Both the position numbers and the translations under genes were made by a program. The notes beneath the pieces are model-generated. The model was not told the origin of the DNA and ran no database searches. It saw only the letters and a list, made by a program, of their open reading frames with translations. A stretch of 64,000 nucleotides of DNA from Leptolinea sp. (GTDB taxonomy: Bacteria; Chloroflexota; Anaerolineae; Anaerolineales; Anaerolineaceae), in NCBI GenBank assembly GCA_012798535.1, contig JAAZMZ010000020.1, positions 1 through 64,000 of the forward strand. Direction: 5' to 3'. Shown piece after piece: positions 37,279 to 59,436 of this stretch (its first letter is position 1; the number at the start of each line of letters is the position of its first letter).

Positions 37279-37306
37279 ATTATAAAGGAACAATCCGGCC
37301 TGTCAA
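37279..37306 (-). promoter_or_regulatory. Consensus promoter of the his operon
   Basis: On the minus strand TTGACA and TATAAT are both perfect, with a 16-bp spacer. The predicted start falls at 37271-37273, immediately at the leader peptide. Confidence 0.88.
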
Positions 37307-37435
37307 GAGATCACTTTTATTCAGATATAGGTTATGCTTTTCTTTAATATTGAAGCATTTTGTTCTCAAATTGCGGATTTAAAAAAGGCGATTTTGATCA
37401 TTTCAATTGTTAGGATTTTGTTTCATAAGACGATA

Positions 37436-37476
37436 TTGACATTCTTGATTATTGGAATATAATAATGTACGAACAT
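37436..37476 (+). promoter_or_regulatory. Promoter P1 with ATGTACGAACAT operator, upstream of iclR
   Basis: TTGACA (37436-37441), 16 bp, TATAAT (37458-37463), 1 bp, then the imperfect palindrome ATGTACGAACAT (37465-37476) across the expected start site. The same arrangement occurs twice more at 55.2-55.3 kb. Placement at +1 implies repression. The palindrome resembles operators of the GntR class, so the GntR protein at 58.6 kb is the favoured regulator. Confidence 0.85.
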
Positions 37477-37496
37477 AAATATATAACAAGATACTA

Positions 37497-37525
37497 TTGA
37501 CATAAACAACATAAACATGTATCAT
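37497..37525 (+). promoter_or_regulatory. Second promoter P2 upstream of iclR
   Basis: TTGACA, 17 bp, TATCAT. It lies between the P1 operator and the KdgR-like site and would give a leader of about 55 nt for the IclR gene. Confidence 0.65.
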
Positions 37526-37531
37526 ATTGAT

Positions 37532-37559
37532 AATGAAACGCAGTTTTACATAATGAAAC
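37532..37559 (+). promoter_or_regulatory. KdgR-like operator upstream of iclR
   Basis: AATGAAACGCAGTTTTACAT is an imperfect dyad like the KdgR/IclR box (AATGAAAC-N3-GTTTCATT type), followed at once by a second half-site AATGAAAC. It sits just downstream of P2 and 30 nt before the IclR start, consistent with autoregulation. Confidence 0.5.
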
Positions 37560-37588
37560 ACTGATCCTGCTGTAACAGGAAATGGAAA

Positions 37589-38371
37589 ATGGATCCATCC
37601 GCAGCTTCCCTGAATAACTCGGTTGAAAAGGCATTTGTCATACTTGAGTTTTTAGCCAATAAAGCAGATCCCATTGAACTGTCGGCATTAAGTCGCGCTT
37701 TATCCATTAATAAAAGTACAGCTTACCGCTACCTGACCACACTTGAATCTCTGGGTTATGTGGTCAAGGATGCGGATACCAGTTGTTATACGCTTGGATC
37801 AAAAGCTCTCTGGCTGGCGTCGAAATTTTTAAACAACCTGGACTTGCGTACCCAGGCCCATCCAATTCTTCGTAAATTGAGTGATGAGACTGGCGAAACG
37901 GTCCATCTGGCTTACCTGGATAATTTCGAAGTGGTCTATGTGGACAAGATCGATGGAAAATCCCCAGTGAAAATGGCATCGCGGATCGGGAACCGAATGC
38001 CGGCGCATTGCACCGGATTGGGGAAGGCTTTAATGGCCTTTCTTCCCGAAACGGAGTGGCAGAAATACATCGATCGGGTTGGATTGAAATACCATACCAG
38101 AAATACCATCACCCAACCAAAGGAATTTTTTGACCATCTTCGAATGATCCGCGAACGCGGTTATTCGATCGATAACAGCGAAAACGAAGAAGGAATTCGC
38201 TGTGTGGCTCTTCCTGTGCGCAATCATGAAGGTAAAGTGATTGCCGCCATCAGCATTGCCGGCTGGGTAATATCGATGACCCCGGACCGTGATGAAACTC
38301 TGGCCAGGATCGGCCAGAAGTACTCCCAGTTAATCTCAGAAAAACTTGGTTTAACCCGGACCAATTCATAG
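37589..38371 (+). CDS. IclR-family transcriptional regulator, KdgR-like
   Basis: A 260-residue regulator. The N-terminal winged helix (residues 9-70) has SVEKAFVILEFLANK and the recognition helix region SINKSTAYRYLTTLESLGYV. The C-terminal IclR ligand-binding domain has GKSPVKMASRIGNRMPAHCTGLGKALMAF with the conserved Cys, and NEEGIRCVALPV with the second Cys. Homologues sense 2-keto-3-deoxygluconate, glyoxylate/pyruvate or aromatic acids. It opens a block of transport and aldolase genes, and a KdgR-like box lies directly upstream. Confidence 0.92.
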   Translation: MDPSAASLNNSVEKAFVILEFLANKADPIELSALSRALSINKSTAYRYLTTLESLGYVVKDADTSCYTLGSKALWLASKFLNNLDLRTQAHPILRKLSDETGETVHLAYLDNFEVVYVDKIDGKSPVKMASRIGNRMPAHCTGLGKALMAFLPETEWQKYIDRVGLKYHTRNTITQPKEFFDHLRMIRERGYSIDNSENEEGIRCVALPVRNHEGKVIAAISIAGWVISMTPDRDETLARIGQKYSQLISEKLGLTRTNS

Positions 38372-38558
38372 ATCAGCGCATGGATCAACGGGAAGGGAAT
38401 TTATCCATCCTTTTTCCAGCAGGCGCAAATCCCCGGGAAATACCTGGTTCATTCAAGGGCTTGCCCATGGAGGTGGAATATACGAAAAGCTGAAGAAAAT
38501 TGAAAACCTGTTATGTGAATAAAGTTGATAAAAACCAATGACAAGGAGAAAACAAGAG

Positions 38559-40031
38559 ATGAAAAGTAGGCTGTCAAAATTATTCTCGGTGCTGATGGTA
38601 GTCTCCGTTTTATTTGCTGGATTTGCTCCTGTAACCAGTGTCGCTGCGGCTGCTCCGGCTGCGGATAAGAAAGAAATTACCTGGGCGACCATTGCCGGTT
38701 TCTACACCGACTGGGCAGAGAACGTGGCGAAGGACTTTGAAGCGAAGACCGGGTACAAAGTAAACATCGTCAAGATGGATCTCCCGACGATGTATGAGAA
38801 AGAAGTACTCGATATGGTAGGCGGGACTGGCGCCTATGATGTCATCACCTGGAACGTATCCTGGAAGGCTGAATGGGCCAATAACGGATATCTTCTTCCT
38901 CTCGATGATTATATCGCAAAGGAAGATCCCAAAGAGTTGGATTTCGAAGATATTACCCCAATCCTTGTGAAAACTGGTGGTGGTTGGGCAGGCAAGACCT
39001 ATGGTCTTCCTTACTACACCTATACACAGGGTATGATCTACCGCTGCGATCTGTTCGAGGATCCCTCAGAAATGGCCGCTTTCGAAAAGAAATACGGTTA
39101 CAAACTGGATATCCCAACGACCTATGATCAGATGGCAGATATCGCGGCCTTCTTCACCCGCAAAGCCGGCGACACTTTGAAAGGCCAGAAGCTGGATAAA
39201 GATTTCTACGGTATTGGTACCATGTCCGGCCGCTTTACCAATCTATTCGACGAAGTCAACATGATCGCCTGGGGTATGGGCGGAGATGTGATCAACAAAG
39301 ATGGCACCCCCGGTGTGGATGATGCCGCCTATGTCAAGGCACTGACCTACGATATCGAAAAACTGGTTCCCAATGCTCCTCCTGGTTCATTGACCGGTTC
39401 CTATGACTTCGTTGTCAGCCAGTTGAACTCCGGACTGATCGCCATGACGGGCCCGTTCTACCTGGATCAATGGGCGAACGCTGTCAAGACAGAGAAACAG
39501 ATCCCCGGTTCCGAAATTTGTGCTGCACCGAATCCCAGTGGCGGCCGCGTTTGGGCTGGTGCCTTCAATATCGGTATCCCCAAGGGATCCAAGAATCCTG
39601 ATATGGCCTGGCAGTTCATGAAATTCATCACCAGCAAAGAAGCCCAGCTTTCATTTGCGCAAGGTGGTGGCAGTGCGATCCGCGACAGTATCATGACCGA
39701 TAAAGACTTCTATACCAAGAACCGTGAGACCGCCGGACACTTCCCAGTGGTGAAACAGATCAATGATTGGGCCGATAAGTGCTGGCATACAAATATGATC
39801 TATGTTCCGCAGGTTGGCAAGATTTATGAGGAAGCTCCGCAATGGCTGTCTGCCGCTGTGACCAAACAGCAGACGCCCCAGCAGGCAATGGATGGATATG
39901 CCAAAGCCATCACAAAACTGTGCGGTGGTAAAGCCTGCGAAGTAAAACTCGAAGGCGTTGAATTACCCAGCGCCAGTGCTGATTGCTCCTTCAAATTTGA
40001 CAAGAGTTTGCAGGTACGTTTGAAGAAATAA
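38559..40031 (+). CDS. ABC transporter substrate-binding protein, family 1
   Basis: Extracellular carbohydrate-binding protein, 490 residues. The signal peptide has a hydrophobic core SVLMVVSVLFAGFAPVTSVAA with an AxA cleavage site and no lipobox Cys. The mature part starts KKEITWATIAGFYTDW and has the two-lobe family 1 pattern (YDVITWNVSWKAEW, YGLPYYTYTQGMIYR, GKIYEEAPQWLSAAV, with many Trp/Tyr for sugar stacking). The start is ATG 38559 with AAGGAG upstream; the frame from 38538 places that site inside the gene. Substrate is unknown; dependence on two ATPases recalls glycerol/polyol importers. Confidence 0.9.
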   Translation: MKSRLSKLFSVLMVVSVLFAGFAPVTSVAAAAPAADKKEITWATIAGFYTDWAENVAKDFEAKTGYKVNIVKMDLPTMYEKEVLDMVGGTGAYDVITWNVSWKAEWANNGYLLPLDDYIAKEDPKELDFEDITPILVKTGGGWAGKTYGLPYYTYTQGMIYRCDLFEDPSEMAAFEKKYGYKLDIPTTYDQMADIAAFFTRKAGDTLKGQKLDKDFYGIGTMSGRFTNLFDEVNMIAWGMGGDVINKDGTPGVDDAAYVKALTYDIEKLVPNAPPGSLTGSYDFVVSQLNSGLIAMTGPFYLDQWANAVKTEKQIPGSEICAAPNPSGGRVWAGAFNIGIPKGSKNPDMAWQFMKFITSKEAQLSFAQGGGSAIRDSIMTDKDFYTKNRETAGHFPVVKQINDWADKCWHTNMIYVPQVGKIYEEAPQWLSAAVTKQQTPQQAMDGYAKAITKLCGGKACEVKLEGVELPSASADCSFKFDKSLQVRLKK

Positions 40032-40054
40032 GGTTGTGCTTTGAGGTATGAGTT

Positions 40055-40089
40055 GGGGTACGAGTATGTCTAGTACTCGTACCCCAATT
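40055..40089 (+). promoter_or_regulatory. Intercistronic hairpin after the binding-protein gene
   Basis: A perfect 14-bp stem TTGGGGTACGAGTA/TACTCGTACCCCAA with a 7-nt loop and no U-tract. It lies between the binding protein and the first permease. Such hairpins often protect the upstream message, raising binding protein over permease levels. Confidence 0.7.
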
Positions 40090-40113
40090 ACAAAGAATAA
40101 GGAGAAGGAAGCA

Positions 40114-41052
40114 ATGAGTGAAGCAGAATTAACAACCACTCAAACTCAGAGCTATAAAAAGAACAGGTTCTCAGATAAGTGGTATTCGATGATCCTGGTT
40201 TCTCCGGCCATGGTCGTCTTGATCTTCTTCGGACTGGTTCCCCTGTTCTACGCGATCTATCTATCTTTTCATTATGCCGATTTGACCGCTGGCGGTATTC
40301 AAGGCTGGGTTGGACTGGATAATTTCCGTGATGCGTTAAATAATGACGAATTCTGGAGCGCCGCAGGAAGAACCCTTGAATTTACAATTTTCGCTGTGGG
40401 CATAGAGATGATCTTCGGGATCGCACTTGCCTTCATGATCAACCAGTTGAAATGGTTCAAAGGCATTATCCGCGCTTTATTCCTTTTACCCATGGCATCT
40501 GCACCGGCAGCCGTCGGTCTGGTGTGGCGGTATTTGTATGATCCGGATTTTGGTGTGTACACCTGGTTGATGAATTTGATCCCGGGTGTGAAAGCTCCAA
40601 ACTGGCTGGGAGATCCAAAATGGGCCATGCCCAGCATTATTGTGTTTGACATCTGGATGTGGACCCCCTATGTCATGTTGATCGTTCTGGCAGGTTTACA
40701 GTCCCTTCCAAGGGAGCCCTTTGAAGCGGCTGAATTGGACGGTGCTTCGATTTGGATGGTGCTTAGAAGATTGACTTTCCCCATGCTGACGCCGGTTTTG
40801 ACACTCATCTTTGTTCTGCGCACCATTGACTCCATAAAATTGTATGACGCAGTCATCACCCTTACACGCGGCGGCCCCGGTGTGGCGACGGAAACGGTCA
40901 CATACTACCTCTACCGACTTGGATTGAAATACTTCCGCCTGGATCAAGCCAGCGCCATGGCGTTGCTCGTACTCTTCGTAGTGGTTATTTTCTCGGGTGT
41001 TGTACTTCGCTCTATGATGAAATCTCAAGCCGCCCGGACCCGAGGGGATTAA
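40114..41052 (+). CDS. ABC transporter permease, MalF/UgpA type
   Basis: Inner permease subunit of 312 residues with six membrane helices. The first is MILVSPAMVVLIFFGLVPLFYAIYLSF. The EAA loop appears as REPFEAAELDGASIWMVLRRLTFPML, and the helix before it holds IVFDIWMWTPYVMLIVLAGL. The start is the ATG with AAGGAGAAGGA upstream; the frame beginning at 40048 reads through the hairpin. The last segment ends in VVVIFSGVVLRSMMK. Confidence 0.92.
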   Translation: MSEAELTTTQTQSYKKNRFSDKWYSMILVSPAMVVLIFFGLVPLFYAIYLSFHYADLTAGGIQGWVGLDNFRDALNNDEFWSAAGRTLEFTIFAVGIEMIFGIALAFMINQLKWFKGIIRALFLLPMASAPAAVGLVWRYLYDPDFGVYTWLMNLIPGVKAPNWLGDPKWAMPSIIVFDIWMWTPYVMLIVLAGLQSLPREPFEAAELDGASIWMVLRRLTFPMLTPVLTLIFVLRTIDSIKLYDAVITLTRGGPGVATETVTYYLYRLGLKYFRLDQASAMALLVLFVVVIFSGVVLRSMMKSQAARTRGD

Positions 41053-41059
41053 GGAGAAG

Positions 41060-41923
41060 ATGATGATTCAAAACAGCAAAGTCAGGGGCATGGATATTGT
41101 CAGATTTGCAATTGTGATCGCTATTCTGATCCTGTTCATGTTCCCCATATATATGATGATCACGACATCCTTCAAACCATCGCTGGATATTTTGAACACG
41201 CCGCCTCGCTGGACGTTCGAACCAACCCTGGAACACTATAAATACGCATTTGAAGTTGCCAATTTTGGTCACTTTATAAAGAATACTCTCATCGTTACAC
41301 TTTTCTCAACCCTGATCGTTGTGGGTGTGGGTACTCTGGCATCTTATTCATTTGCCCGGTACAACGTGGGCGGTGGAAACTTGATGTTCTTCATTCTGAC
41401 CACTAAAATGATGCCGGCTATTGCAGTTGTTCTGCCTTTCTTCCTGATCTTCAAACAGGTGGGTTCCACGGATATTGGAGAATTTTTGCAGCTCGGTCTG
41501 GACCAGTTGGGTACGCTGGTGGTCTGCTATACCATCTTCAATCTTCCTTTTGCGATCTGGTTGCTGGTATCTTTCTTTCAGGATATTCCGATTGAACTTG
41601 AAGATTCAGCCCGATTGGATGGGTATACCCGCTGGGATGTGCTATGGAAGATCGTTTTCCCGCTAGCCGCACCGGGTATTGCTGTCACGGCCATCTTCTG
41701 CCTGCTGTTCAGTTGGAATGAATTTCTCTTTGCCTTCATTCTGACACGCAGCGAAGCCATGACCATCACCGTGGGCGTAAATGGTTTTTGGACGGAGCGC
41801 GGTATTCTCTGGGGACCGTTGTCGGCGGCTGCCACTGTCTGTGTGGTTCCGATGATGGCATTCGCTCTGGCGCTGCAGCGTTATATTGTGCGCGGTCTTA
41901 CATTTGGCGCGGTCAGAGGCTAA
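41060..41923 (+). CDS. ABC transporter permease, MalG/UgpE type
   Basis: Second permease subunit, 287 residues, six helices. The first is FAIVIAILILFMFPIYMMITTSFKPS. The EAA loop is IPIELEDSARLDGYTRWDVLWKIVFPLA, and a C-terminal helix ends in MAFALALQRYIVRGLTFGAVRG, typical of MalG C-termini. It follows the first permease by 7 nt with AAGGAG. A second ATG one codon on is an equally good start. Confidence 0.93.
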   Translation: MMIQNSKVRGMDIVRFAIVIAILILFMFPIYMMITTSFKPSLDILNTPPRWTFEPTLEHYKYAFEVANFGHFIKNTLIVTLFSTLIVVGVGTLASYSFARYNVGGGNLMFFILTTKMMPAIAVVLPFFLIFKQVGSTDIGEFLQLGLDQLGTLVVCYTIFNLPFAIWLLVSFFQDIPIELEDSARLDGYTRWDVLWKIVFPLAAPGIAVTAIFCLLFSWNEFLFAFILTRSEAMTITVGVNGFWTERGILWGPLSAAATVCVVPMMAFALALQRYIVRGLTFGAVRG

Positions 41924-41935
41924 AGGAGATTAACC

Positions 41936-42136
41936 ATGTCACTATCAAAACTCTGGGACCGGGCCTGGTGGGGCTTCATGATCTTCATCTTTATCGGTCT
42001 GGTCTGGCTGAAATTTATCGATCCCTATATCAACTGTGTCTGGACGGGTGTCGTTGTAGCGACAATTTGCGGAGGTCTGTATCTGTATACCGGCGTTCGT
42101 CAAATGCTCCGTGATAAAGACAAAGAAGATATGTAA
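41936..42136 (+). CDS. Small two-helix membrane protein in the transporter operon
   Basis: A 66-residue protein: WWGFMIFIFIGLVWLKFIDPY and a second hydrophobic helix TGVVVATICGGLYLYTG with a short charged C-terminus. It is placed with a good ribosome site (AAAGGAG) 12 nt after the second permease and before the ATPases. Its position recalls the small membrane protein of glycerol-type ABC operons (GlpU/DUF2160), but I cannot show homology. It may be an accessory subunit of the importer. Confidence 0.75.
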   Translation: MSLSKLWDRAWWGFMIFIFIGLVWLKFIDPYINCVWTGVVVATICGGLYLYTGVRQMLRDKDKEDM

Positions 42137-42147
42137 GGAATATTGCC

Positions 42148-43287
42148 ATGCTTGAATTGGATTCCATTACACGAAAATTTGAAAAAACTGTTGCGGTCGA
42201 TAGAATGTCGCTCGAATTAAAAGACGGGGAATTTATGGTCATATTCGGCCCGGCAGGAGCAGGTAAATCGACCACTCTGAGGCTCATTGCTGGGATCATC
42301 CAACCAACCAAAGGAGAGATTCGATTTAACGGACATTCCTTAAAAGATGTGCCACCGGAAAATAGAAATATGTCCATGGTGTTCGAAAATTATGCTCTGT
42401 ATTCTCACATGACAGTCTTCGAAAACATGGCTTTTCCACTGCGTGCAAAAAAAATGTCCGACGAAGAAATCCAGAAGCGGATCAAGAATATGGCTGAAAC
42501 ACTGCAGATCACGGATTTGCTTGAAAGACGGCCGGGCTTCCTGAGCGGTGGACAACGGCAGAGAGTTGCGTTGGGCCGGGCATTGATTCGGGAAGCGGAT
42601 GTCTATCTGCTGGATGAACCAATTTCGCACCTGGATGCCAAATTGCGCCATCATATGCGCGGTGAGATCAAAGCCATGTGTGGTGAACGGGGTGCAACGG
42701 TCGTTTACGTCACGCATGACTATAAAGAGGCCATGGCGTTGTCTGATCGAATTGTGGTATTGAACAAAGGTAAAGCCATGCAAATTGGCACACCGGATGA
42801 AGTCTTCCACCGACCTCAAAGTGAATTTGTGGCCTCCTTCCTTGGAGATCCATCCATGAGTTTCCTGGATGGAGTATTGAAGGAAGAAACCGGAAAGCAT
42901 TTTCTCGAACTCGATAGCATACAAATTCCGGTGGAAGCCACAACTGCAGAAAAGATACTTTCAAAGGTAAGAAACGGCCGTGTGCGCATAGGCATAAGAG
43001 CCAGTGAAGTTTCAATATCCCGTACACAGACAAAAACAAACACGATTCCGGCAGAAGTGTATGTGGTGGAAACTTTTGGGTACCGGAATATTGTCACCTG
43101 TCAATGTAAAGGAGCAGGACTGGTGCAATCCATCGTCTCACCGGATGTGAAGATTAATATCCATGAAACCGTCTTCCTGGACCTTTCCGATAAGAATGTC
43201 CATATTTATGTTCCGGATGGAGAAGCAATCACACACCCCGTGGATTTTAAGAATGGGCAGCAAGGAGTGGGCAATGTCATCCATTAA
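42148..43287 (+). CDS. ABC transporter ATPase 1, MalK/UgpC-like, Glu in Q-loop
   Basis: A 379-residue nucleotide-binding subunit: Walker A GPAGAGKST, signature LSGGQRQRVALGRAL, Walker B VYLLDEPISHLD and H-loop YVTHDY. The Q-loop reads MVFENYALYS, with Glu in place of the usual Gln. The C-terminal OB/TOBE regulatory domain covers about residues 240-365. It is paired with a second, different ATPase gene that overlaps its 3' end by 14 nt, so the importer probably uses a heterodimer. Confidence 0.92.
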   Translation: MLELDSITRKFEKTVAVDRMSLELKDGEFMVIFGPAGAGKSTTLRLIAGIIQPTKGEIRFNGHSLKDVPPENRNMSMVFENYALYSHMTVFENMAFPLRAKKMSDEEIQKRIKNMAETLQITDLLERRPGFLSGGQRQRVALGRALIREADVYLLDEPISHLDAKLRHHMRGEIKAMCGERGATVVYVTHDYKEAMALSDRIVVLNKGKAMQIGTPDEVFHRPQSEFVASFLGDPSMSFLDGVLKEETGKHFLELDSIQIPVEATTAEKILSKVRNGRVRIGIRASEVSISRTQTKTNTIPAEVYVVETFGYRNIVTCQCKGAGLVQSIVSPDVKINIHETVFLDLSDKNVHIYVPDGEAITHPVDFKNGQQGVGNVIH

Positions 43288-44371
43288 ACTGGAAAAACTC
43301 GAAAAATGGTATGGCAAGAGCGTACATGCCGTACGGGGTATTGACCTGGATATTGCCGATGGCGAGTTCATGGCTTTCCTTGGCCCTTCCGGTTGTGGAA
43401 AATCTTCCACCATGCGGATCATTGCCGGCCTAGAAGAGATCTCATCGGGAAATCTGTATTTCGATAAGAAAATAGTGAATGATGTCAGCCCCAAGGACAG
43501 GGGAGTGGCCATGGCTTTTGAAACCTATGCTCTGTATCCGACCTTGAATACGTATGAAAACCTGGCGTTTCCCCTACGGGCTGCCGGATGGAATCAAGCG
43601 GATATTGATAAACGGGTGCGTGAGATTGCGGGAATTCTTGAAATAACCGATCTACTGGATAAAATGCCGACCGGTATGAGTTCAGGACAGGCTCAGAAAG
43701 TTGGACTGGCCCGGGCGCTGACCCGAAAACCCAATGTTTTTGTTCTGGACGAACCCATCTCGCATCTCGATACCCGACAGCGCAGCCGTATGCGCGCCTA
43801 CTTAAAACGCCTGCATATCGAACTAAACCACACCATGATCTATGTGACCCATGACCAGGAAGAGGCTATGGCCATGGCGGATCGAATCACCGTTATGCGC
43901 GACGGCATTTTGGTTCAAACGGGAACACCCGAAGAAATTTATAACACTCCAGTTAACCTGTTTGTAGCCGGTTTTGTAGGTGAACCGGCCATGAATTTCC
44001 TGGATTGCGATTACCGGCATGAAGATGGAAAAGATGCACTTATACATCACAATATTTCCATTCCTTTACCGGATCAATATAAAGACCTGGTCAAGAACGG
44101 CAAAATGCCGGCAAAGGTTGTTCTGGGAATTCGACCGTTCTATGTGAGTGTAAACACGAAAAAAGATGCCCACCACGTGATTCCGGCAGAAGTATTTGTA
44201 GTCGAACCAATGGGTGATACCAAAGTATTTTCTGCGAAGTTGAACGATATCCGTTTCCAGGCAGTCACCAATCCGGATTATCGAATCGCGCCAAAAGAAA
44301 ATGTCTGGCTTGGCTTTGATCCCGAACACATTTTGCTATTTGATGCTCAGAGTGAAATGGCGTTGAAATAG
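43274..44371 (+). CDS. ABC transporter ATPase 2, degenerate signature, Glu in Q-loop
   Basis: A 365-residue ATPase: Walker A GPSGCGKSS, Walker B VFVLDEPISHLD and H-loop VTHDQEEA are normal. The Q-loop is MAFETYALYP (Glu for Gln) and the signature is MSSGQAQKVGLARAL rather than LSGGQ. A TOBE domain follows, ending LLFDAQ. The true start is the ATG with AAGGAG at 43274; the longer frame runs back into ATPase 1. The pair may form one canonical and one degenerate ATP site. Confidence 0.9.
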   Translation: MSSIKLEKLEKWYGKSVHAVRGIDLDIADGEFMAFLGPSGCGKSSTMRIIAGLEEISSGNLYFDKKIVNDVSPKDRGVAMAFETYALYPTLNTYENLAFPLRAAGWNQADIDKRVREIAGILEITDLLDKMPTGMSSGQAQKVGLARALTRKPNVFVLDEPISHLDTRQRSRMRAYLKRLHIELNHTMIYVTHDQEEAMAMADRITVMRDGILVQTGTPEEIYNTPVNLFVAGFVGEPAMNFLDCDYRHEDGKDALIHHNISIPLPDQYKDLVKNGKMPAKVVLGIRPFYVSVNTKKDAHHVIPAEVFVVEPMGDTKVFSAKLNDIRFQAVTNPDYRIAPKENVWLGFDPEHILLFDAQSEMALK

Positions 44372-44510
44372 TAGAGACGATAATCGGAGAGGCAAGCATT
44401 CGTTTCAATTATCAGAAGGCTGGCTGAATGTATTTGAGACAGCTTTTCAAAAGACAGAATCGGTTCTTGCCGATGTTCTGGTGATTGAATATTCTTATCG
44501 AGGAGAGACT

Positions 44511-47145: not shown

Positions 47146-47168
47146 AAACTAAAGTTACAGGAGGAGAA

Positions 47169-48098: not shown

Positions 48099-48141
48099 CG
48101 TACGTGATTTATTAAGTAGACAAGAAAGAAGATCAGGTAAG

Positions 48142-48645
48142 ATGGATACCATTGAATGTATATTGACCCGCCGAAGCTGCCGCTCATTCACATCAGAAAC
48201 CGTTGCGAAAGAAGATATCACACTTCTCTTAAAATGTGCCATGCAATCTCCCTCTGCCGCCGACAAACAGTCATGGAATTTTATTATCATCCAGGATCGC
48301 AAGATACTGGATAAAATACCCGGATTTCAAAAATATGGAGGCTTTGTAGCCGGAGCACCGGCGGGGATTCTGGTTTGTTGTGATTCGACTAAGAATGCGG
48401 ATATGTGGGCAATCGATGCCAGTATCGCGGCGCAGACCATTCTTCTGGCCGCGCATGCCATCGGGCTGGGAGGCTGCTGGCTGGCTGTTCAACCATTCCC
48501 GGACTTTATCCAGGGCTTCCGTGAACTCCTCGCGCTTCCCGAAAATATTCACCCGCATTGTTTTGTTGTGATCGGGCATCCTGCAGAAAAACAACCTGTC
48601 GTAAACCGATTTGATGAGAAGAAAATCCACTTTGATCAGTGGTGA
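48142..48645 (+). CDS. Nitroreductase-family flavoprotein
   Basis: A 167-residue FMN protein: ILTRRSCRSFTSETV at the N-terminus (phosphate contact), MQSPSAADKQSWNFIII, and GLGGCWLAVQPF followed by HCFVVIGHPAEKQ at the C-terminus. It reduces an unknown electron-poor substrate with NAD(P)H. It is the last gene before a bidirectional-looking terminator. I use ATG 48142 with CAGGTAAG upstream; 48082 overlaps the aldolase gene. Confidence 0.83.
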   Translation: MDTIECILTRRSCRSFTSETVAKEDITLLLKCAMQSPSAADKQSWNFIIIQDRKILDKIPGFQKYGGFVAGAPAGILVCCDSTKNADMWAIDASIAAQTILLAAHAIGLGGCWLAVQPFPDFIQGFRELLALPENIHPHCFVVIGHPAEKQPVVNRFDEKKIHFDQW

Positions 48646-48677
48646 TTTATTAACCGTGTTTTCGTGTACAAAAAAAT

Positions 48678-48704
48678 GAGGCGCATGGTTTTTTCATGCG
48701 CCTC
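48678..48704 (+). terminator. Bidirectional terminator
   Basis: A perfect 10-bp stem GAGGCGCATG/CATGCGCCTC with a GTTTTTT loop, A-run on the left and TTT on the right. It separates the plus-strand catabolic operon from the minus-strand sigma/anti-sigma genes. Confidence 0.88.
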
Positions 48705-48724
48705 TTTCGTCGCCATTAGAATTG

Positions 48725-50155
48725 TCAGGGTAATTGATACTGGAATTTCCAGTCACCTTTCAGCCTGAATTGGTAATTATTCACCATACAGTGAACACCG
48801 CCCACCGGTCGTCCTTCGGAAAAATACTCTTCTACAAGAGTATGGGAATCATCCAGCTTTCTGGCTTGACCGTATCCGTTGCCGGCTTTTCCCTGATCAC
48901 GGCATAGAAAATCAACTGATTGAAATTCTGGTGAACCCGAGATTTTGAATGCATAACCTTCATCCGGGTTCTGCCCTTCCAACTCTGGTTTGAATTGAAC
49001 CGCTTCGACGCTATCTATGTGGATGGTCTGTCCTGCGATTTTGATTTCTTTGTTCAATTCCCATTTTTGACCTATCGTCGGATGTTCACCGGCATCAAAT
49101 GAAAATGACGTCGATTCGTCTCCCATGCCGCCTACATAGATGGCCGATACTTGCATGGTCAGAGGATTTGCCGGCTTATACGCGATGATCTTATAGGCGA
49201 ACTGATCGTCTTTCCATTCATCGGGACTGGGTTCAAGGTCAAGAAGGTTACCATTTGTATCCACCACCCGGAGGGACTCAAAATCGATCCGAGCATCCAT
49301 CCAGTCTTTATTTTCCCAGGTGATATTCCCGGTAATGAGATATCCATCGGTTAACGCAACTGCTTTATCGATCGAAAGATGAAATATGGGATCGGTAGGT
49401 GGCGTTTGACCCTGTGGTCTGGATGATGCCTGACCTTGCGGTGTCGCCGTAGATATCATGGTTTGGTCACCGGGGATGACCGGCATCAGGGTCACTGTTG
49501 GGGGTATTGGACCAAAGGTGATATCCACGACCCATTCTGACGGTCCGGTGCAATCCGGTTCAGGCATATTCTGAGAGATATACAAACTGGCACTCTTATC
49601 GGTACCAGCCAATGGCTGGAACTCCACCCGTGCCGTAGTCCCCTGAACCCAACCGCCGATGGGAAGCCGTGTCTTTCCGTCGGACAGAAGCAGCTCGTTA
49701 TTATCGTAGAAACAGGTTTCGGCTTCACCTTCGGCATTCTTTGGCAGGTTCTCAAAATGATAGGCGATCACCGTATTACTGGCATCCGTCACTGCCTGGT
49801 CAATAACCAGCTTAATTCCGTTTTTCTCCACGATGATTGGTTCGGATAAATAACGTGCGCCATTCTCATCCTGTATAAAACCGATCCCCGGGATATAGGA
49901 AAGCAAATTGTTGAAGGCTGCGACCACATTTTGCGGGCCGATAACGGCAACGAAAAGGATCACCAGAATTACTGCCATGGAAATGTTCCAGGCTGGTTTA
50001 GTGAAAAGATAGCCGAATGAAAAAGGTGCCTTTTGTTTCAGGGAAGTCTGACTGATCTCTTCCCACAGTGAATCGACAAATTTCTCCTCCGGTTCGACCG
50101 ACTGCATGATCTTGCGGATGTTTTCTTCCAGATTTTCAATGGATGGATTAGTCAT
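48725..50155 (-). CDS. Anti-sigma-factor-like membrane protein
   Basis: A 476-residue single-pass protein. The N-terminal ~50 residues are cytoplasmic and rich in acidic helix (NLEENIRKIMQSVEPEEKF). A membrane segment ISMAVILVILFVAVIG lies near residues 57-72. A long extracytoplasmic region with two beta-rich halves is split by a Pro/Thr/Gln-rich spacer (about 225-250). It overlaps the sigma-factor gene by 8 nt and has the topology of an ECF anti-sigma factor. I do not see a zinc HxxxCxxC motif. The sensed signal is unknown. Confidence 0.75.
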   Translation of the reverse strand: MTNPSIENLEENIRKIMQSVEPEEKFVDSLWEEISQTSLKQKAPFSFGYLFTKPAWNISMAVILVILFVAVIGPQNVVAAFNNLLSYIPGIGFIQDENGARYLSEPIIVEKNGIKLVIDQAVTDASNTVIAYHFENLPKNAEGEAETCFYDNNELLLSDGKTRLPIGGWVQGTTARVEFQPLAGTDKSASLYISQNMPEPDCTGPSEWVVDITFGPIPPTVTLMPVIPGDQTMISTATPQGQASSRPQGQTPPTDPIFHLSIDKAVALTDGYLITGNITWENKDWMDARIDFESLRVVDTNGNLLDLEPSPDEWKDDQFAYKIIAYKPANPLTMQVSAIYVGGMGDESTSFSFDAGEHPTIGQKWELNKEIKIAGQTIHIDSVEAVQFKPELEGQNPDEGYAFKISGSPEFQSVDFLCRDQGKAGNGYGQARKLDDSHTLVEEYFSEGRPVGGVHCMVNNYQFRLKGDWKFQYQLP

Positions 50156-50720
50156 GATCTTCCTCCAATTTTGTGGACAGGCGAACCAGCAGGCGTGTGA
50201 TGGATTTTCTTACCGCATCTTCTTTGCGATTGAGTATCAGTCCGATCTCCCGGTAACTCAGGTTGGCCGCATAACGCAGGCGGATCAATTCCCGATCATC
50301 TTCAGATAGCATTGTGATGAGTTGATTCACGCGGACCGTTTCCTCGCTTTTAATCGTAAGAGAGAGGAGGTCAGATGCAGGATATTCCAGATCTACCTGC
50401 TCCAAAGGCAGCTCTTTCTTTCCTTTGCGATAAAAATCCACCGCACGAGCATGAGCAATGGTGAACAGCCACGCGGGGAATGAGCCCTGATGGCGGAAGC
50501 GCGGCAAATCCTGGTAGGTTCTCAGAAACACCTGAGAGGTCAGATCTTCGGCGTCTTTTTCATCGTGTACTCTGGAATAAAAGTAACGATAAACCGGTTT
50601 TAACCATTTCAAATAGAGGATTTTGAAATCTGCCGGATTCTGTTGGGCTGCCAGAACGAGTCTTTGATCTTCGTCAATTTCATCGATTGGTTGTGTCGTA
50701 AGACATATTGTTTCAGTCAT
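50148..50720 (-). CDS. ECF-type RNA polymerase sigma factor
   Basis: A 190-residue sigma-70 family protein with region 2 (LKWLKPVYRYFYSRVHDEKDAEDL, then HQGSFPAWLFTIAHARAVDFYR) and region 4 (LRYAANLSYREIGLILNRKEDAVRKSITRL). The 1.1 and 3 regions are absent. The ATG with AGGAGC upstream (50720) is used instead of 50759. It partners the membrane protein encoded downstream. A TGACAG-N15-CGTA element 40 nt upstream resembles ECF promoters and may be its own target. Confidence 0.9.
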   Translation of the reverse strand: MTETICLTTQPIDEIDEDQRLVLAAQQNPADFKILYLKWLKPVYRYFYSRVHDEKDAEDLTSQVFLRTYQDLPRFRHQGSFPAWLFTIAHARAVDFYRKGKKELPLEQVDLEYPASDLLSLTIKSEETVRVNQLITMLSEDDRELIRLRYAANLSYREIGLILNRKEDAVRKSITRLLVRLSTKLEEDHD

Positions 50721-50762
50721 TGAAGCTCCTGATTTGCATAGTTGTGTTCGAAGATGCATCTC

Positions 50763-50787
50763 TACGAATACAACCGATCAACTGTCA
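50763..50787 (-). promoter_or_regulatory. Candidate ECF-type autoregulated promoter
   Basis: On the minus strand TGACAG, 15 bp, CGTA, about 43 nt before the sigma start. The form is like ECF promoters with a TGA(A/C)AC -35 and CGT -10. No second copy was found in the window, so this is tentative. The rest of 50788-50975 shows no gene or clear element. Confidence 0.3.
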
Positions 50788-50975
50788 AAAACCGGACAAA
50801 GAAAAATTTTATTAATTGGGATAAATCGATTGTCGGAACAATATGATCCGACTGTTATGGGAACGTTCTGGTGACATCGACAAACCGCACAATTATAGTC
50901 CGCCCGACTTTGGCATCATTGTTGGAATCTCCGGATATGTCATTCCAATATTCGGATAAATACATTTGAGGAACG

Positions 50976-51008
50976 AAAAAGCCCGGTTAAGAAACAATCG
51001 GGCTTTTT
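50976..51008 (-). terminator. Terminator of the minus-strand catabolic operon
   Basis: Perfect stem AAAAAGCCCG/CGGGCTTTTT with a 13-nt loop, A/T-rich on both sides. It lies 20 nt past the AroE-like stop, ending the operon that begins with the lactonase at 55.2 kb. Confidence 0.88.
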
Positions 51009-51027
51009 CAAGGAGATAAGTGGTTCT

Positions 51028-51978
51028 CTAGCGCACTGAATTGGCTGCGTTATTTAATTCTTCAAACAGAGTTTTATTCAGGTTTACGTGTAACACCTGC
51101 GCAACTACCTGAGTCCAGCCGTGCACAAAATACAACCAGCCGTCTTCAACCCTGACATTACGGGATTTGACCTGCCGTAAAGCCTGATGCATGAAATCCA
51201 GTTCACCCCGGTAGTTGAACTCCCAGGCTATGGTATCCTTAGGAAAAAGACCATTGTCTGTGATGGGAGATCCCGGTGTGTCTTTACCCATTCCCGTCGC
51301 GTTGATCACAATACTGCTGCGCGGCATGTTTTTCATGATCTCGTCGTTCTTTTTGGGATCCGCATTGCAGATATATTCCACCCGGATATCGGTGTGCAAT
51401 TCGGCAACCATTTCTTTCGCATGATCCAACCGACCGGCGGAACGATTGACCATGATAAAACGTTTTGGACGATCGGCGGGATTCGTTTTATTAATGAGAT
51501 GAAGCAGGGTGGCAATGGCCGATCCACCGGCACCGAAGCAGAGTACATCTCCGCCGGTTCTTCCAAAATATCCTTCTCCAATAATGGAATCCAGACTTAA
51601 ACCGGCCGTAATCGGATCTTTTGCGTGGCCTTCCAATCGTCCATCCAATTTGGAAATACTCGAAACTTCATCACAGATTTCCGCATAGGGATCAAGATAA
51701 TCGAACATATCCCGCGCGGCGGTCAGCAGGTCGATTTTGTGGGTGGTGACCAGAGCTCCCAGCGACAATGGATCATATTTGATCTGGGCAACTGCCTGCC
51801 GGTAGGCCTCGGCGGAGTCGTGTATCTTCAAGTCGACACCTTCGATGATGACACCTGGACGGCCCAGAACTTTCATCCACAGGGGAAAGACCTTCATGAT
51901 GGATGATCTTGTTGTGGTTACACCGATGAAATAAAAGGTGGGTACTGACTTAGTTGCAATCGGGTAGGGGGAAATCAT
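51028..51978 (-). CDS. Shikimate-dehydrogenase-like (AroE family) enzyme
   Basis: A 316-residue protein with the two AroE domains. The N-terminal substrate domain (TFYFIGVTTTRSSIM, LGALVTTHKIDL with catalytic Lys and a DYLDPYAEICDEVSSISK segment) is followed by the Rossmann domain with VLCFGAGGSAIATLLHL and INATGMGKDTPGSP. The N-terminal GVTTTRSS differs from the usual GxPxxHS, so shikimate is unlikely to be the substrate. It is last in a sugar-acid catabolic operon. It may act on a hydroxy-keto acid of that pathway. Confidence 0.82.
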   Translation of the reverse strand: MISPYPIATKSVPTFYFIGVTTTRSSIMKVFPLWMKVLGRPGVIIEGVDLKIHDSAEAYRQAVAQIKYDPLSLGALVTTHKIDLLTAARDMFDYLDPYAEICDEVSSISKLDGRLEGHAKDPITAGLSLDSIIGEGYFGRTGGDVLCFGAGGSAIATLLHLINKTNPADRPKRFIMVNRSAGRLDHAKEMVAELHTDIRVEYICNADPKKNDEIMKNMPRSSIVINATGMGKDTPGSPITDNGLFPKDTIAWEFNYRGELDFMHQALRQVKSRNVRVEDGWLYFVHGWTQVVAQVLHVNLNKTLFEELNNAANSVR

Positions 51979-51998
51979 CTGACCTCACAAAAACTGGT

Positions 51999-52649
51999 TC
52001 AACTGGCAACCCGGGCATCCCGGACAGCCTGGACAAAATTCTTCGCTCTGGTGGTGATTTCTTTGAAATTACCTTCCTGAGCCAGTTTTGGCGGGCAGAG
52101 TTCGCTTCCCGCGCCTACTGCCACAACACCTGCAGCAAACCAGTCCTTCACATTATCCACGCTCACACCGCCGGTCGGCATCATGGGTATCTGCGGGAAC
52201 GGTCCATGCAGTGCTTTTATGTACGATGGACCGGTCAATGAACCGGGAAAGACCTTTACCACGTCCGCTCCGGATTCGAAGGCAAAAAACACTTCTGTCG
52301 GGGTCAGAGCGCCGATCATACTAGCCGCGCCGGAGGATGTCATGGCTTTGACCAGAAGTGGTTCGCATACCGGGCTGACCAAAAAATTGGCACCCGCAGC
52401 CAGTGCTGATTTCACCTGGGCTGGTCTGGTGAGTGTACCCATACCCAGAACAATACTTTCGCCAAAGTATCTGGCGAGTTGAGATACTACATCTTCGGCG
52501 TTGGGTGTGCTGTAGGTGATTTCAATTCCACGAACGCCGCCTTCCACAAGCGCTTCCACCATTTTCACCGTTAATTCGGCTGATGGTCCCCTGATCACGG
52601 AGACCAATCCGAGCTCTTTGATCTTTGAGAGTACAGTCTGTTTATCCAT
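51999..52649 (-). CDS. eda: KDPG/KHG-type aldolase
   Basis: Class I 2-keto-3-deoxy-6-phosphogluconate/4-hydroxy-2-oxoglutarate aldolase, 216 residues: catalytic Glu in VRGIEITYSTP, GMGTLTRPAQVKSAL, AGANFLVSP, Schiff-base Lys in ADVVKVFPG and phosphate-type loop MPTGGVS. All catalytic residues are present. The start is ATG with AAGGATC upstream; a longer frame from 52736 overlaps the dehydrogenase gene. It indicates that a 2-keto-3-deoxy acid, probably phosphorylated, is cleaved to pyruvate. Confidence 0.9.
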   Translation of the reverse strand: MDKQTVLSKIKELGLVSVIRGPSAELTVKMVEALVEGGVRGIEITYSTPNAEDVVSQLARYFGESIVLGMGTLTRPAQVKSALAAGANFLVSPVCEPLLVKAMTSSGAASMIGALTPTEVFFAFESGADVVKVFPGSLTGPSYIKALHGPFPQIPMMPTGGVSVDNVKDWFAAGVVAVGAGSELCPPKLAQEGNFKEITTRAKNFVQAVRDARVAS

Positions 52650-52669
52650 GTCTTGATCCTTGTTATTCG

Positions 52670-53635
52670 TTATTGAACCGGATGCAGAGGAGGTTTCCCC
52701 TGAAGCACAGCCAGGCAATCTTCGTAAGCCATCCAACCCATCTGATTTACTGCTCCATCCGTCTGAGCGCCTAGATGGGGGGTGGAAATTACACCGGGGA
52801 AGGAGAGCAGCTCGGAATTGGGGTCCGGGGGTTCTTGAATCAGAGCATCCAGCGCTGCGCCTGCCAGATGGCCGCTTTTCAATGCTTCCAATAAAGCATC
52901 TTCATCCACAAGTTCTCCGCGGGCGGTGTTGATCAGGTACGCTCCCCTTTTCATCTGGGATAGGAACTGCCTGTTCACCAGGTTCTTCGTTTGAGGCATC
53001 AAAGGAAGATGCAGGCTGACAAAATCGGCCTTCTCGAGGATCACATTCATCTCATCCAGGTCGATCTGATGCTCTGCCGCGAATTTCTGATCTGGATAAG
53101 GATCATAGGCCATCAAGTGACAACCAAAACCCTTCAGCCGCAGAGCCGTCTGTTTCCCAATTGCACCAAGACCGATAAGCGCCACATATTTGTTTTCCAG
53201 GGTTATCCCCGAAAGCCGCGGCCACTGGCCGGCGCGCGTGGCAGAAAAAGCCGGGGACAGCTGTCTGGCCAGGGTCAAGATAAGGGCAACAGCCAGTTCG
53301 GCAACCGATGCGGAATTGGCTCCCGGTGTATTGGTGACTACGATTCCCATCTTTTTAGCAACCTCAAGATCGACGGCATCCACTCCCACACCGTATCGGG
53401 CAATGACTTTAAGTTTGTCGGCGTGCTGCAGCGCGCGGCTGTCGATGCAATCCAATCCGGCGATGTAGCCATCGATTCCCGGAAGAAGACTGGCCACCTC
53501 TTCCGAGGTTAATGGTTTGCCTGTCGGATTGTAGATCACTTCACCGAACTGCCGCTCAAGTTCGGTTTTCAACCGGGGGTCATTTTTGGCGTAAGAAGTT
53601 GGTGTAACCAGCAATCTAAATTTCTTTAGGTCCAT
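52670..53635 (-). CDS. D-isomer 2-hydroxyacid dehydrogenase
   Basis: A 321-residue NAD-linked dehydrogenase of the SerA/GyaR type. The Rossmann motif is LIGLGAIGKQTALRL. The catalytic triad positions are Arg in INTARGELVDEDAL, Glu in ALIQEPPDP and His in VISTPHLGAQTDGA. There is no ACT domain, so serine synthesis regulation is not expected. The preferred start is ATG 53635 with AGGGTG upstream; a GTG at 53644 overlaps the upstream stop. It probably reduces or oxidises an intermediate of the pathway. Confidence 0.87.
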   Translation of the reverse strand: MDLKKFRLLVTPTSYAKNDPRLKTELERQFGEVIYNPTGKPLTSEEVASLLPGIDGYIAGLDCIDSRALQHADKLKVIARYGVGVDAVDLEVAKKMGIVVTNTPGANSASVAELAVALILTLARQLSPAFSATRAGQWPRLSGITLENKYVALIGLGAIGKQTALRLKGFGCHLMAYDPYPDQKFAAEHQIDLDEMNVILEKADFVSLHLPLMPQTKNLVNRQFLSQMKRGAYLINTARGELVDEDALLEALKSGHLAGAALDALIQEPPDPNSELLSFPGVISTPHLGAQTDGAVNQMGWMAYEDCLAVLQGKPPLHPVQ

Positions 53636-53640
53636 ATGTA

Positions 53641-54219
53641 TCACCCTGTTTTCCAGTTTGGATTATCAATGCTTTTATATCCATCTGTGCTGTCAACGAT
53701 CAATTTCCTGAAGCCCCGTTTGATAATGGTGCCGTAATCGTGGCCTGCGTTGCCGGGATAAATAAAGAATGTCACCAGGTCGTTCTGCCTGCCGGTGCAG
53801 ACAGAGCGGTGTGCCCACCGTGGAGGAACATATAGAATCTTTCCCGGTACCAAAGGTTCTATGCTGGTATCTCCCTCCGGATTTTCCATGATCATCACAC
53901 CCTCACCTTTCAGGCAGTAATAAATCTCGGCCGTCTCCAGTACCGAATGGAAATGACCTTTCGTCATGAAAAACTCATTTCCGACCTTTCCGGGATGTAC
54001 GATGGATATTCCGGATAAAAGCTCGCCGGGAATTTCAGGACGGTGGATTTCATATACCTCATACATCAGGGAATCACCTTTAGACTGCAATTCCTTGAAT
54101 GCCTGTGTATCGAGAAACATACCTTCCATGGATGACAGGCGGCGTTCCAGGTGACGATCGTACTTATGGGGGATGCAGGTAGGGAAAGCAAGATCTATTG
54201 AAAAGGGAATGTCAGGCAT
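53641..54219 (-). CDS. Cupin-type glucose-6-phosphate isomerase family protein
   Basis: A 192-residue member of the archaeal-type cupin phosphoglucose isomerase family (PF06560): metal ligands in FMTKGHFHSVLETAEIYYCLKGEG (HxH and Glu) and a final His in VPPRWAHRSVC. An unusually long N-terminal segment of ~75 residues precedes the barrel. ATG 54219 has GGAG at 7 nt. In this operon it may isomerise a sugar phosphate other than glucose-6-phosphate; the specificity is not readable. Confidence 0.85.
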   Translation of the reverse strand: MPDIPFSIDLAFPTCIPHKYDRHLERRLSSMEGMFLDTQAFKELQSKGDSLMYEVYEIHRPEIPGELLSGISIVHPGKVGNEFFMTKGHFHSVLETAEIYYCLKGEGVMIMENPEGDTSIEPLVPGKILYVPPRWAHRSVCTGRQNDLVTFFIYPGNAGHDYGTIIKRGFRKLIVDSTDGYKSIDNPNWKTG

Positions 54220-54231
54220 GCGTATCTCCAA

Positions 54232-55173
54232 TCAGTTGCGAATTTCTGTTGCCAGAATCCGGCAAATATTCTTACCGAGTAATTTTTGGATTGTTTCATC
54301 AGGAACGCCCATTTTTTCCAGGCGTTGTTTTATTTGTGTGGGAAAGGCGCTCAATCCGGGTGCTCCGCCAAAACTCTGCCAGTAATTGGATTCGGCCAGG
54401 TCAGTTGCCAGGCACACATGATTTTCTAAACCCGATGCGATCATCTCTCTGATCAGCGGCCAGAGATTTGTTTCAGGTGCATATTTTGTACGAAAGAAGG
54501 TGTCATATTCCAGCGCAGCACCGGCCTGAATGAGTTCTCGATGTAACCCGGCATCCGGCCGTTTATCCATATGGCATAGAATGACCTGCCGTGGATCAAC
54601 TCCGAGAGACAGAAACAGGTCAAGAATTTCGATTGCCGATTCGCCTTTTTCAGTGTGAATTTCTATAGCCCTGTCGGTCTCCCTGGCGGCGTGCGCTGCG
54701 GCGTGTAATGCCGGCAGATAGGTATTTTCAACAGTGTTCTCGCAGGCGATCTTGATAAAACCTGCTTTCACAGGAGACTCCGTATTGAGGGTTTCCCTTT
54801 CTCCCAGAGTGAGCTCCTGGATGAAGTAGTCGCTGATTTGGTTCTCCGGGCTCATCCACAACCAGTGATCCGGTGGATAATACACAGGCCGATGAAAACC
54901 TGTGGCCGAAATGATGGTCACGGTAGTGGCCTTTGACAATCGGGTGAGCATGACAGCATTTCGGCCGCATTCGCCAGGCTGGCAATCCACCAGAGCAGAC
55001 CCGCCGGTGCTGGCATAATCCAGCAACTCCCGGGCGATGAGATCAAATCTATTCAAGACAGGTCCAGTAGGTTCAATCCCGGAAATTGTGTCGATCCAGA
55101 CGTGATTATGAGCATCGGTGATGCCCGGTGCATCCCAGGGGATATTTCCAGTTACTGTTACAAGAAATTTCAC
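54232..55173 (-). CDS. Phosphotriesterase-family lactonase
   Basis: A metal-dependent amidohydrolase of 313 residues: HxH in TDAHNHVWID, the bridging lysine in GFIKIACENTV, metal His in AIEIHTEKGES and ILCHMDKRPD, and the final Asp in CLATDLAESNY. All five metal ligands of the PTE family are recognised. Members of this group in sugar operons hydrolyse sugar lactones, including phosphorylated ones. It is the first gene of the minus-strand operon, 26 nt after the operator. The PTE label does not imply activity on organophosphates. Confidence 0.85.
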   Translation of the reverse strand: MKFLVTVTGNIPWDAPGITDAHNHVWIDTISGIEPTGPVLNRFDLIARELLDYASTGGSALVDCQPGECGRNAVMLTRLSKATTVTIISATGFHRPVYYPPDHWLWMSPENQISDYFIQELTLGERETLNTESPVKAGFIKIACENTVENTYLPALHAAAHAARETDRAIEIHTEKGESAIEILDLFLSLGVDPRQVILCHMDKRPDAGLHRELIQAGAALEYDTFFRTKYAPETNLWPLIREMIASGLENHVCLATDLAESNYWQSFGGAPGLSAFPTQIKQRLEKMGVPDETIQKLLGKNICRILATEIRN

Positions 55174-55198
55174 ATGAAATCCTTAAAATAATGTAACA

Positions 55199-55239
55199 AT
55201 GTACGTACATAATTATATATATTATTCTAGGGGTGTCAA
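55199..55239 (-). promoter_or_regulatory. Promoter/operator of the lactonase operon
   Basis: On the minus strand TTGACA (55234-55239), 16 bp, TATAAT (55212-55217), 1 bp, then the perfect palindrome ATGTACGTACAT (55199-55210). The architecture is identical to the promoters at 37.4 and 55.3 kb. This copy has the fully symmetric operator. Confidence 0.9.
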
Positions 55240-55280
55240 GACACCGGGGTCAGATCTGTGTGAACTTGCAAATTCTATTA

Positions 55281-55321
55281 TTGACAATCTGTAAAGAAAT
55301 ATTATAATAATGTACGAACAT
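55281..55321 (+). promoter_or_regulatory. Promoter/operator of the DeoC-kinase operon
   Basis: TTGACA (55281-55286), 16 bp, TATAAT (55303-55308), 1 bp, ATGTACGAACAT (55310-55321). It is divergent to the lactonase promoter with about 40 bp between the -35 boxes, so the two operons are controlled together. Confidence 0.9.
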
Positions 55322-55371
55322 AGGAATAAAAATACAAACAAAATCTCATTTTTGCCATAATAAGGAATCCT

Positions 55372-56088: not shown

Positions 56089-56098
56089 AGGTGACGGC

Positions 56099-57649: not shown

Positions 57650-57663
57650 CTAAGGAGAATGGC

Positions 57664-58389: not shown

Positions 58390-58413
58390 CGAGGAAAGTG
58401 CCTTCTACACGTT

Positions 58414-58460
58414 GAACAACCTCTCAAAGGAGATCTAGTATCTCTTTTGAGAGGTTGTTC
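58414..58460 (+). terminator. Long hairpin terminator after the DeoC operon
   Basis: A 21-bp stem with one G-U pair (arms 58414-58434 and 58440-58460, loop CTAGT) ends in GTTTC. Such length and symmetry suggest termination in both directions, separating the operon from the GntR gene. Confidence 0.7.
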
Positions 58461-58565
58461 GTTTCAATCATCCCAACACCAACGCGTCACACAGGATGCA
58501 TTTCTCTGCGAGACGGGTCTATGTTAGAATAATATTAAGACAGGTTAATTTGATGGAGTCTAACC

Positions 58566-59300: not shown

Positions 59301-59331
59301 GTCTGGAAAAATGTAGAACGATAAATTTTGG

Positions 59332-59365
59332 AAAGGATCATCCCGAATATTGGATGATCCTTTTT
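59332..59365 (+). terminator. Terminator after the GntR gene
   Basis: Stem AAAGGATCATCC/GGATGATCCTTT (12 bp, 8-nt loop) followed by TT and ATTCTC. Confidence 0.9.
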
Positions 59366-59371
59366 ATTCTC

Positions 59372-59421: not shown

Positions 59422-59436
59422 TAAAGTGAGGTGAGT

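Follow-up and report, generated by a model that had tools for sequence, protein, structure and literature searches.

A GntR/UTRA-family protein as the probable repressor of three promoter-operator modules confined to a 22-kb island of Leptolinea sp.

Three promoters in a 64,000-nucleotide stretch of Leptolinea sp. DNA (positions 1 to 64,000 of contig JAAZMZ010000020.1, assembly GCA_012798535.1; the whole stretch is called the window) follow the same plan, and the question raised by this locus is whether they form one regulon and which protein reads them. The first-pass annotation of this DNA had proposed a single regulon under a GntR-type repressor such as that encoded at 58566, and the three 41-bp modules on which it relied were indeed found at the coordinates and on the strands it had given, with zero mismatches to TTGACA-N16-TATAAT-N-ATGTACGNACAT. 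Module P1 (37436..37476, plus strand) consists of TTGACA at 37436-37441, N16, TATAAT at 37458-37463, one nucleotide and the box ATGTACGAACAT at 37465-37476; the module of the lactonase operon (55199..55239, minus strand) has the box ATGTACGTACAT at 55199-55210, and that of the DeoC operon (55281..55321, plus strand) has ATGTACGAACAT at 55310-55321. Judging from the sequence, the GntR/UTRA protein encoded at 58566..59300 (plus strand) very probably represses these three box-covered promoters as one regulon.

When the 41-bp module was searched at up to 3 mismatches in the whole 3.5-Mb genome (G000; other genomes and fetched loci carry G and L numbers), three matches were obtained, all of them in the window, and the reversed control gave 0. 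This confinement agrees with the earlier estimate that such an arrangement would hardly arise three times by chance, and no scatter of the module over unrelated genes was seen, all 3 matches lying at linked operons; taken as a whole module, the same operator stands before linked operons and nowhere else in the genome, the bare 12-mer having three other exact places. Full-consensus promoters of the form TTGACA-N15-18-TATAAT occurred four times in the window and not once in 100 shuffles, and the box was present at 3/4 of them. The fourth, TTGACA-N16-TATAAT at 37279-37306 (minus strand) before the his operon, is without a box, so the box is not merely a feature of strong promoters here. Start sites were placed by the usual distance from the -10 element to +1, and the box is predicted to be centred on the start site at all three modules. 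In the mechanism that we infer, a dimer of the 58566 protein would bind the palindromic box on the predicted start site of each full-consensus promoter and block RNA polymerase at all three, and an inducer, predicted to be a metabolite of the pathway, would release the repressor. The regulon would thereby join an ABC importer operon (with iclR), a lactonase/KDPG-type-aldolase operon and a DeoC/kinase/decarboxylase operon for the catabolism of a sugar derivative.

The 58566 protein has the domain make-up of the GntR/HutC family, with matches above cut-off to PF00392 (GntR; 8e-19) and PF07702 (UTRA; 1e-27), and it fell below the cut-off of all 21 listed NCBIfam equivalog models for GntR/UTRA regulators (HutC, TreR, PhnF, PhnR and others). 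The symmetric GT-AC core of the box had been thought to suit a GntR-type protein, and this holds: ATGTACGTACAT reads as GT-ACGT-AC, and most HutC sites are palindromes with GT and AC 4 nt apart, as the excerpted text of PMC4494728 has it. At E<=1e-60 the protein was found in 3/147 genomes of the family including G000, the other two being G021 (Anaerolineaceae bacterium UBA3924; 63% identity) and G031 (Anaerolineae isolate A373; 53-54%), and the box recurs at both loci. The gene row of G021 is deoC-kinase-decarboxylase-SBP-permease-permease-ATPase-ATPase-gntR, where SBP is the solute-binding protein; because these genes are contiguous there, what in the window are the third operon and the first operon's importer form one unit in that genome. 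The box ATGTACGAACAT lies 19 bp upstream of its gntR and a variant, ATGTAGGTACAT, stands behind TTGACA upstream of deoC. In G031, TTGACA-N17-TATTAT-N9-ATGTACTAACAT precedes an ABC binding-protein gene, from which the gene run extends to gntR and deoC. Among more distant homologues, ATGTCCGTACAT or ATGTTCGTACAT lies upstream of gntR in G258 and G282 (GntR 35%), and a box precedes a kinase/ABC run in L090 (GntR 37%). The proposal of one regulon under the 58566 protein is thus supported by recurrence of the box at the closest orthologues and at other GntR/UTRA genes.

A relaxed module, TTGACA-N15-18-TANNAT-N0-6-TGTNCGNACA, was then searched in 400 genomes drawn from the order and gave 14 sites in 12 of them, 11 outside G000, with 0 in the control. 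A GntR/UTRA open reading frame (ORF) was detected by profile search within 1.5 kb (a 3-kb locus) at 10/11 of the outside sites, where about 0.5% per site would be expected by chance from some 1.4 GntR matches per Mb. Because several sites share a locus or genus (one genus contributes four, all at a single locus, and two further genera contribute two apiece), the count was also made by genus, and here GntR/UTRA adjoins 5/6 (P ~1e-11). The eleventh site, in G028, has the exact 16/1 geometry (spacer/gap), and the gene immediately behind it is a 69% homologue of that for the kinase at 56081; a DeoC homologue (65%) lies 6 kb off without a module, and no GntR/UTRA match was found in the 3-kb locus or the surrounding 19.9 kb. 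The neighbourhoods of G006 and G016 hold phosphotriesterase-family and KDPG-aldolase homologues of 28-32% identity. Paired boxes are 82-84 bp apart in three outside loci, much like the divergent boxes of the lactonase and DeoC modules in the window, whose centres are 111 bp apart. Looping of DNA between the latter was considered and is unsupported, since with a helical repeat of 10.5 bp a distance of 111 bp spans about 10.6 turns, which is out of phase; a mobile repeat between the divergent promoters was likewise rejected, as a genome search that allowed 3 mismatches found the 35-bp stretch 55240-55274 only once.

The joining of three modules into one regulon is also borne out by gene content, the genes behind them being neighbours in relatives. 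The lactonase was found at E<=1e-30 in 32/147 family genomes including G000, and the best 12 outside it (47-51% homologues) were fetched. Lactonase, cupin and D-2-hydroxyacid dehydrogenase (2HDH) genes were kept together in 11 of the 12 (in L145 only up to the contig end; the L141 and L145 stretches both end at contig ends), and a GntR/UTRA match of 30-35% to the 58566 protein was present in the stretch in 9/12. In 8/12 the lactonase operon runs via the shikimate-dehydrogenase-like gene into DeoC (40-45%) and a kinase at least 57% identical to that at 56081, so the two divergent operons of the window likely serve one pathway. L135, L142 and L145 have a kinase of 27-29% only and L144 none of these neighbours; in L139, and in the same layout in L136, a Gfo/Idh oxidoreductase and a zinc alcohol dehydrogenase stand between the first kinase and the lactonase. 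All nine sister gntR promoters (L135-L140, L142, L143 and L146) have TATAAT and eight have exact TTGACA, with TTGACT in L142, and 3-4 nt past TATAAT a conserved element (T/A)TGTAAT(A/T)ACAGGATTACAA, also written TGTAAT(A/T)ACAGGATTACA, was found. By their sequence, these sister loci appear to combine the same architecture with another operator and a diverged regulator. In four Bacillales loci (one Neobacillus, three Paenibacillus) a GntR/UTRA homologue (33-35%) directly precedes 2HDH-lactonase-shikimate-dehydrogenase-like-cupin, with KDPG aldolase found in 3/4, and ATGT-N4-ACAT boxes adjoin gntR or the 2HDH gene: ATGTAAGTACAT lies between the two in Neobacillus, and in the three Paenibacillus loci ATGTCATTACAT is upstream of gntR and ATGTAAAGACAT upstream of the 2HDH gene.

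To see how the predicted repressor compares with characterised relatives, its residues were aligned with those of NagR, in which Arg48 contacts G-4 and Arg38 contacts G-5 according to the excerpted text of PMC4333415. Arg49 of the 58566 protein corresponds to Arg48 and Gln39 replaces Arg38, and both halves of the box have G at -4 and T at -5. Arg was absent at position 39 in 10/10 box-associated GntRs (window, L057, L059, L090, L148-L151, the first of L152 and the first of L153; L159, L160 and L163-L166 were left out of the count) vs 20/27 of a general set that overlaps them, a pattern consistent with the box preference but suggestive only. The HutC-subfamily local repressors NagR/YvoA and DasR resemble the 58566 protein in domains, in the GT/AC-spaced palindrome and in the Arg for G-4. 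The NagR site, however, has two consecutive G, whereas the half-site of the box is ATGT, with Gln for Arg38 in the 58566 protein, and the genes of the regulon differ from those of NagR/YvoA and DasR. The centre of the HutC consensus is GTMTAKAC, with TA, in the excerpts of PMC4494728, and the box differs in having the centre ACGT, with CG, although not every HutC site follows the consensus. In the operator core there is a likeness to AraR of Bacillus subtilis, whose consensus At(T/A)tGTaCGTAcaa(A/T)T shares with the box the core GTACGTAC and the CG centre (PMC4218819, excerpted text). AraR is set apart as a minor subfamily by its C-terminal domain (PMC4494728, likewise in excerpt), whereas the 58566 protein has UTRA. 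Its winged-helix domain is like that of the 58566 protein and in the alignment also lacks an equivalent of Arg38, and its operator ends in TTGT where the box has ATGT. The C-terminal domain of AraR is of LacI type.

Several observations weighed against regulation by the 58566 protein through one common operator. The bare 12-mer ATGTACGNACAT is unspecific, with 6 exact places in the genome, of which the three outside the window, at C14, C52 (within an ORF) and C91 (upstream of a glpX-type gene), all lack the module, and exact 12-mers in relatives had a GntR/UTRA ORF at only 6/27 fetched loci (5 distinct places); rarity resides in the combination of promoter and box, and the bare 12-mer is weak evidence. 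The 16/1 geometry is common only to G028 and the window. Among the outside sites, geometry was measured at 8/11 (the remaining three are near-identical to G006), and the other measured sites have a spacer of 17 and a gap of 4-5 nt; the geometries of G021 and G031 differ again from 16/1. No box within 2 mismatches was found before gntR in L089 and L100 (GntR 39-40%). In the wing, NagR Gly69 aligns with Ser70 of the 58566 protein, so that of the NagR-orthologue contacts Arg38, Arg48 and Gly69 the alignment leaves Arg48 alone. Nor need loci that share their genes also share a box, because the lactonase-linked sister GntRs of Anaerolineaceae use another operator.

Two further points on that side lend themselves to a different explanation, namely that another GntR/UTRA paralogue in the genome, rather than the 58566 protein, is the main repressor. 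With itself included, this GntR has 8 matches in the genome, so another paralogue could bind the box too, and the 3.7-kb locus around the gntR of the window, unlike that of G021, shows no box at up to 2 mismatches. The G028 module, preceding a kinase homologue with no nearby GntR/UTRA match, also fits such a paralogue. Even so, we regard this as unlikely, as the nearest orthologues of the 58566 protein are those linked to the same genes and the box, and the 58566 gene shares an island with all three modules.

The second candidate was the IclR-family protein encoded at 37589..38371 (plus strand; nearest model KdgR, below cut-off), which might read the box and control all three promoters. IclR-family proteins often regulate neighbouring catabolic genes, and iclR is the gene directly behind module P1. 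The iclR region, however, has a separate site of its own. A promoter-like sequence, P2 (37497..37525, plus strand; TTGACA-N17-TATCAT, 11/12 consensus), lies 61 bp downstream of P1, and a candidate IclR operator with three alternating boxes, TGAAAC-N3-GTTTTA-N5-TGAAAC (37534..37559, plus strand), falls at its predicted start. The three-box pattern was written from this site itself, which was found by reading, and in the window it occurs only there. Published IclR sites comprise both half-site arrangements as well as three-box sites, KdgR having RWWGAAACGNCGTTTCAKKA (Suvorova and Gelfand, PMC8222616, excerpted text), and the sequence at 37534-37559 resembles both motif types, fits the three-box motif and is distinct from the GntR box. 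Of 6 places in the window that fit the KdgR core when 3 mismatches are allowed, the best is at 37534, with 2 mismatches; this match alone is weak because 6 is near the 3.5 expected. Among 60 other genomes, an IclR orthologue at E<=1e-50 was found only in G004 (50%), where GTTTTGAATAATGAAAC, a near-repeat of boxes 2-3 without box 1, lies upstream of iclR and the 9.4-kb contig has no ATGTACGNACAT within 2 mismatches; G021, conversely, has boxes without an IclR candidate. Control of the three promoters by IclR is therefore very improbable. Instead, IclR is probably a target of the GntR protein and a second, local repressor, and since an IclR-type site falls at the predicted start of P2, two repressors probably act on the transporter operon, one at P1 and the other at P2.

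That the repeats are chance, or a generic strong-promoter feature of the organism, can practically be dismissed: although the 12-mer, with 2 mismatches allowed, is no commoner in the window than chance predicts (12 seen vs 14.5 expected), a genome search for the module that tolerated 3 mismatches gave only three places and a control of zero, the fourth full-consensus promoter of the window has no box, and of the 11 outside relaxed-module sites ten are near a GntR/UTRA gene and one precedes a gene homologous to a regulated one.

The preferred reading, repression by the 58566 protein, also accords with the regulon coinciding with a 22-kb island (37310..59400, approximate ends) that holds the three modules and gntR. 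In three of three sampled congeners (G001-G003) the flanks are adjacent, with about 150-400 unaligned bases between them; they match the window up to 37.26-37.31 kb and resume at 59.7 kb (G001) or about 61.0 kb (G002, G003). In G001 the his promoter region is directly followed by a homologue of the gene at 59431, and in G002 and G003 this gene and the next are also missing at that spot. No match to the lactonase (E<=1e-30), GntR (E<=1e-60) or IclR (E<=1e-50) was found in G001-G003. Close relatives thus lack the block at the corresponding position, as expected of an island, through gain or repeated loss. Despite an estimated 5.3% contamination of the assembly, the contig belongs to the genus, because its flanks match the congeners. 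No integrase was found among the 21 island proteins scanned and no tRNA in the window, and there is no clear direct repeat at the island junctions, which share only a 10-bp AT match.

The gene content of the operons, whose extents are predicted, was next considered. Behind module P1, on the plus strand, iclR is followed by an importer with two ATPases: the solute-binding protein (38538..40031; 60% in the G021 cluster), permeases 1 (40048..41052) and 2 (41060..41923), ATPase 1 (42148..43287) and the MalK-like ATPase 2 (43163..44371; the true start may be later), all of which have counterparts in the G021 cluster. Further on are an MRJP/SGL-type protein, possibly a lactonase (44481..45653), an FGGY kinase (45598..47145; nearest model gluconokinase, below cut-off), a DHDPS-family aldolase (47142..48098; nearest model KDG/KDPG aldolase, below cut-off) and a nitroreductase-family protein (48082..48645). 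The lactonase operon, on the minus strand, encodes a phosphotriesterase-family protein, probably a lactonase (54232..55173; nearest model phospho-furanose lactonase, below cut-off), a cupin-type protein of the glucose-6-phosphate isomerase family (53641..54231), the 2HDH-family protein (52670..53644), a KDPG/KHG aldolase (51999..52736; TIGR01182 above cut-off) and the shikimate-dehydrogenase-like protein (51028..51978), which has no Pfam match and is named from annotated homologues; a single-sequence structure model of it (mean pLDDT 39) was not used. This last protein is 73-77% identical in ten other Anaerolineaceae loci, the top conservation within the lactonase operon there, and 50-53% in four Bacillales loci. 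Behind the third module, on the plus strand, are deoxyribose-phosphate aldolase, DeoC (55372..56088; TIGR00126 above cut-off), an FGGY kinase (56081..57649; nearest model xylulokinase, below cut-off) and an acetoacetate-decarboxylase-family protein (57664..58389), and the GntR/UTRA gene begins 176 bp past the last.

Three side observations were made. The interval between the decarboxylase gene and gntR has a long inverted repeat at 58415-58460, GAACAACCTCTC ... GAGAGGTTGTTC, which may serve as a terminator or as a processing site. Inside the island, the region between the converging operons (48725-50759) encodes an ECF-type sigma factor and a protein whose match to DUF4179 is weak and below cut-off. 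Elsewhere in the genome, at C14 (G000:C14:21115; L001 1501-1512), a perfect ATGTACGTACAT without the module stands about 185 bp before a short ORF with only the GntR helix-turn-helix (HTH).

In a wider and more tentative view, to which we give somewhat less than an even chance, the island would be a portable unit that regulates itself and encodes an undescribed pathway for a sugar derivative, comprising phosphotriesterase-type lactonase, KDPG-type aldolase, shikimate-dehydrogenase-like, DeoC, xylulokinase-like kinase and acetoacetate-decarboxylase-like enzymes, with its importer on two stacked promoters that each have the operator of a different repressor at the start site, so that uptake would answer to two separate metabolites. 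No description of this pathway was found in the literature search, whose returned papers name other pathways in their titles and abstract openings. Likewise, the searches with the operator strings returned titles and abstract openings that name no GntR/UTRA regulator, supplementary site lists being outside the search, and in the regulon-related papers found Anaerolineae went without mention and Chloroflexi had one to six mentions per paper. The kind of control, a local HutC-type repressor regulon, is known, and this particular regulon is new as far as the literature search reaches, supplementary tables lying outside it.

For the Anaerolineaceae, a little-studied group, the analysis names a specific operator, its likely regulator and the genes that together would make up a HutC-type regulon. 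The pairing of operator and regulator predicts genes of the same pathway in other Anaerolineaceae and in some Bacillales, which narrows the search for the substrate, and the regulon, which coincides with an island, cleanly exemplifies a catabolic unit equipped with its own control.

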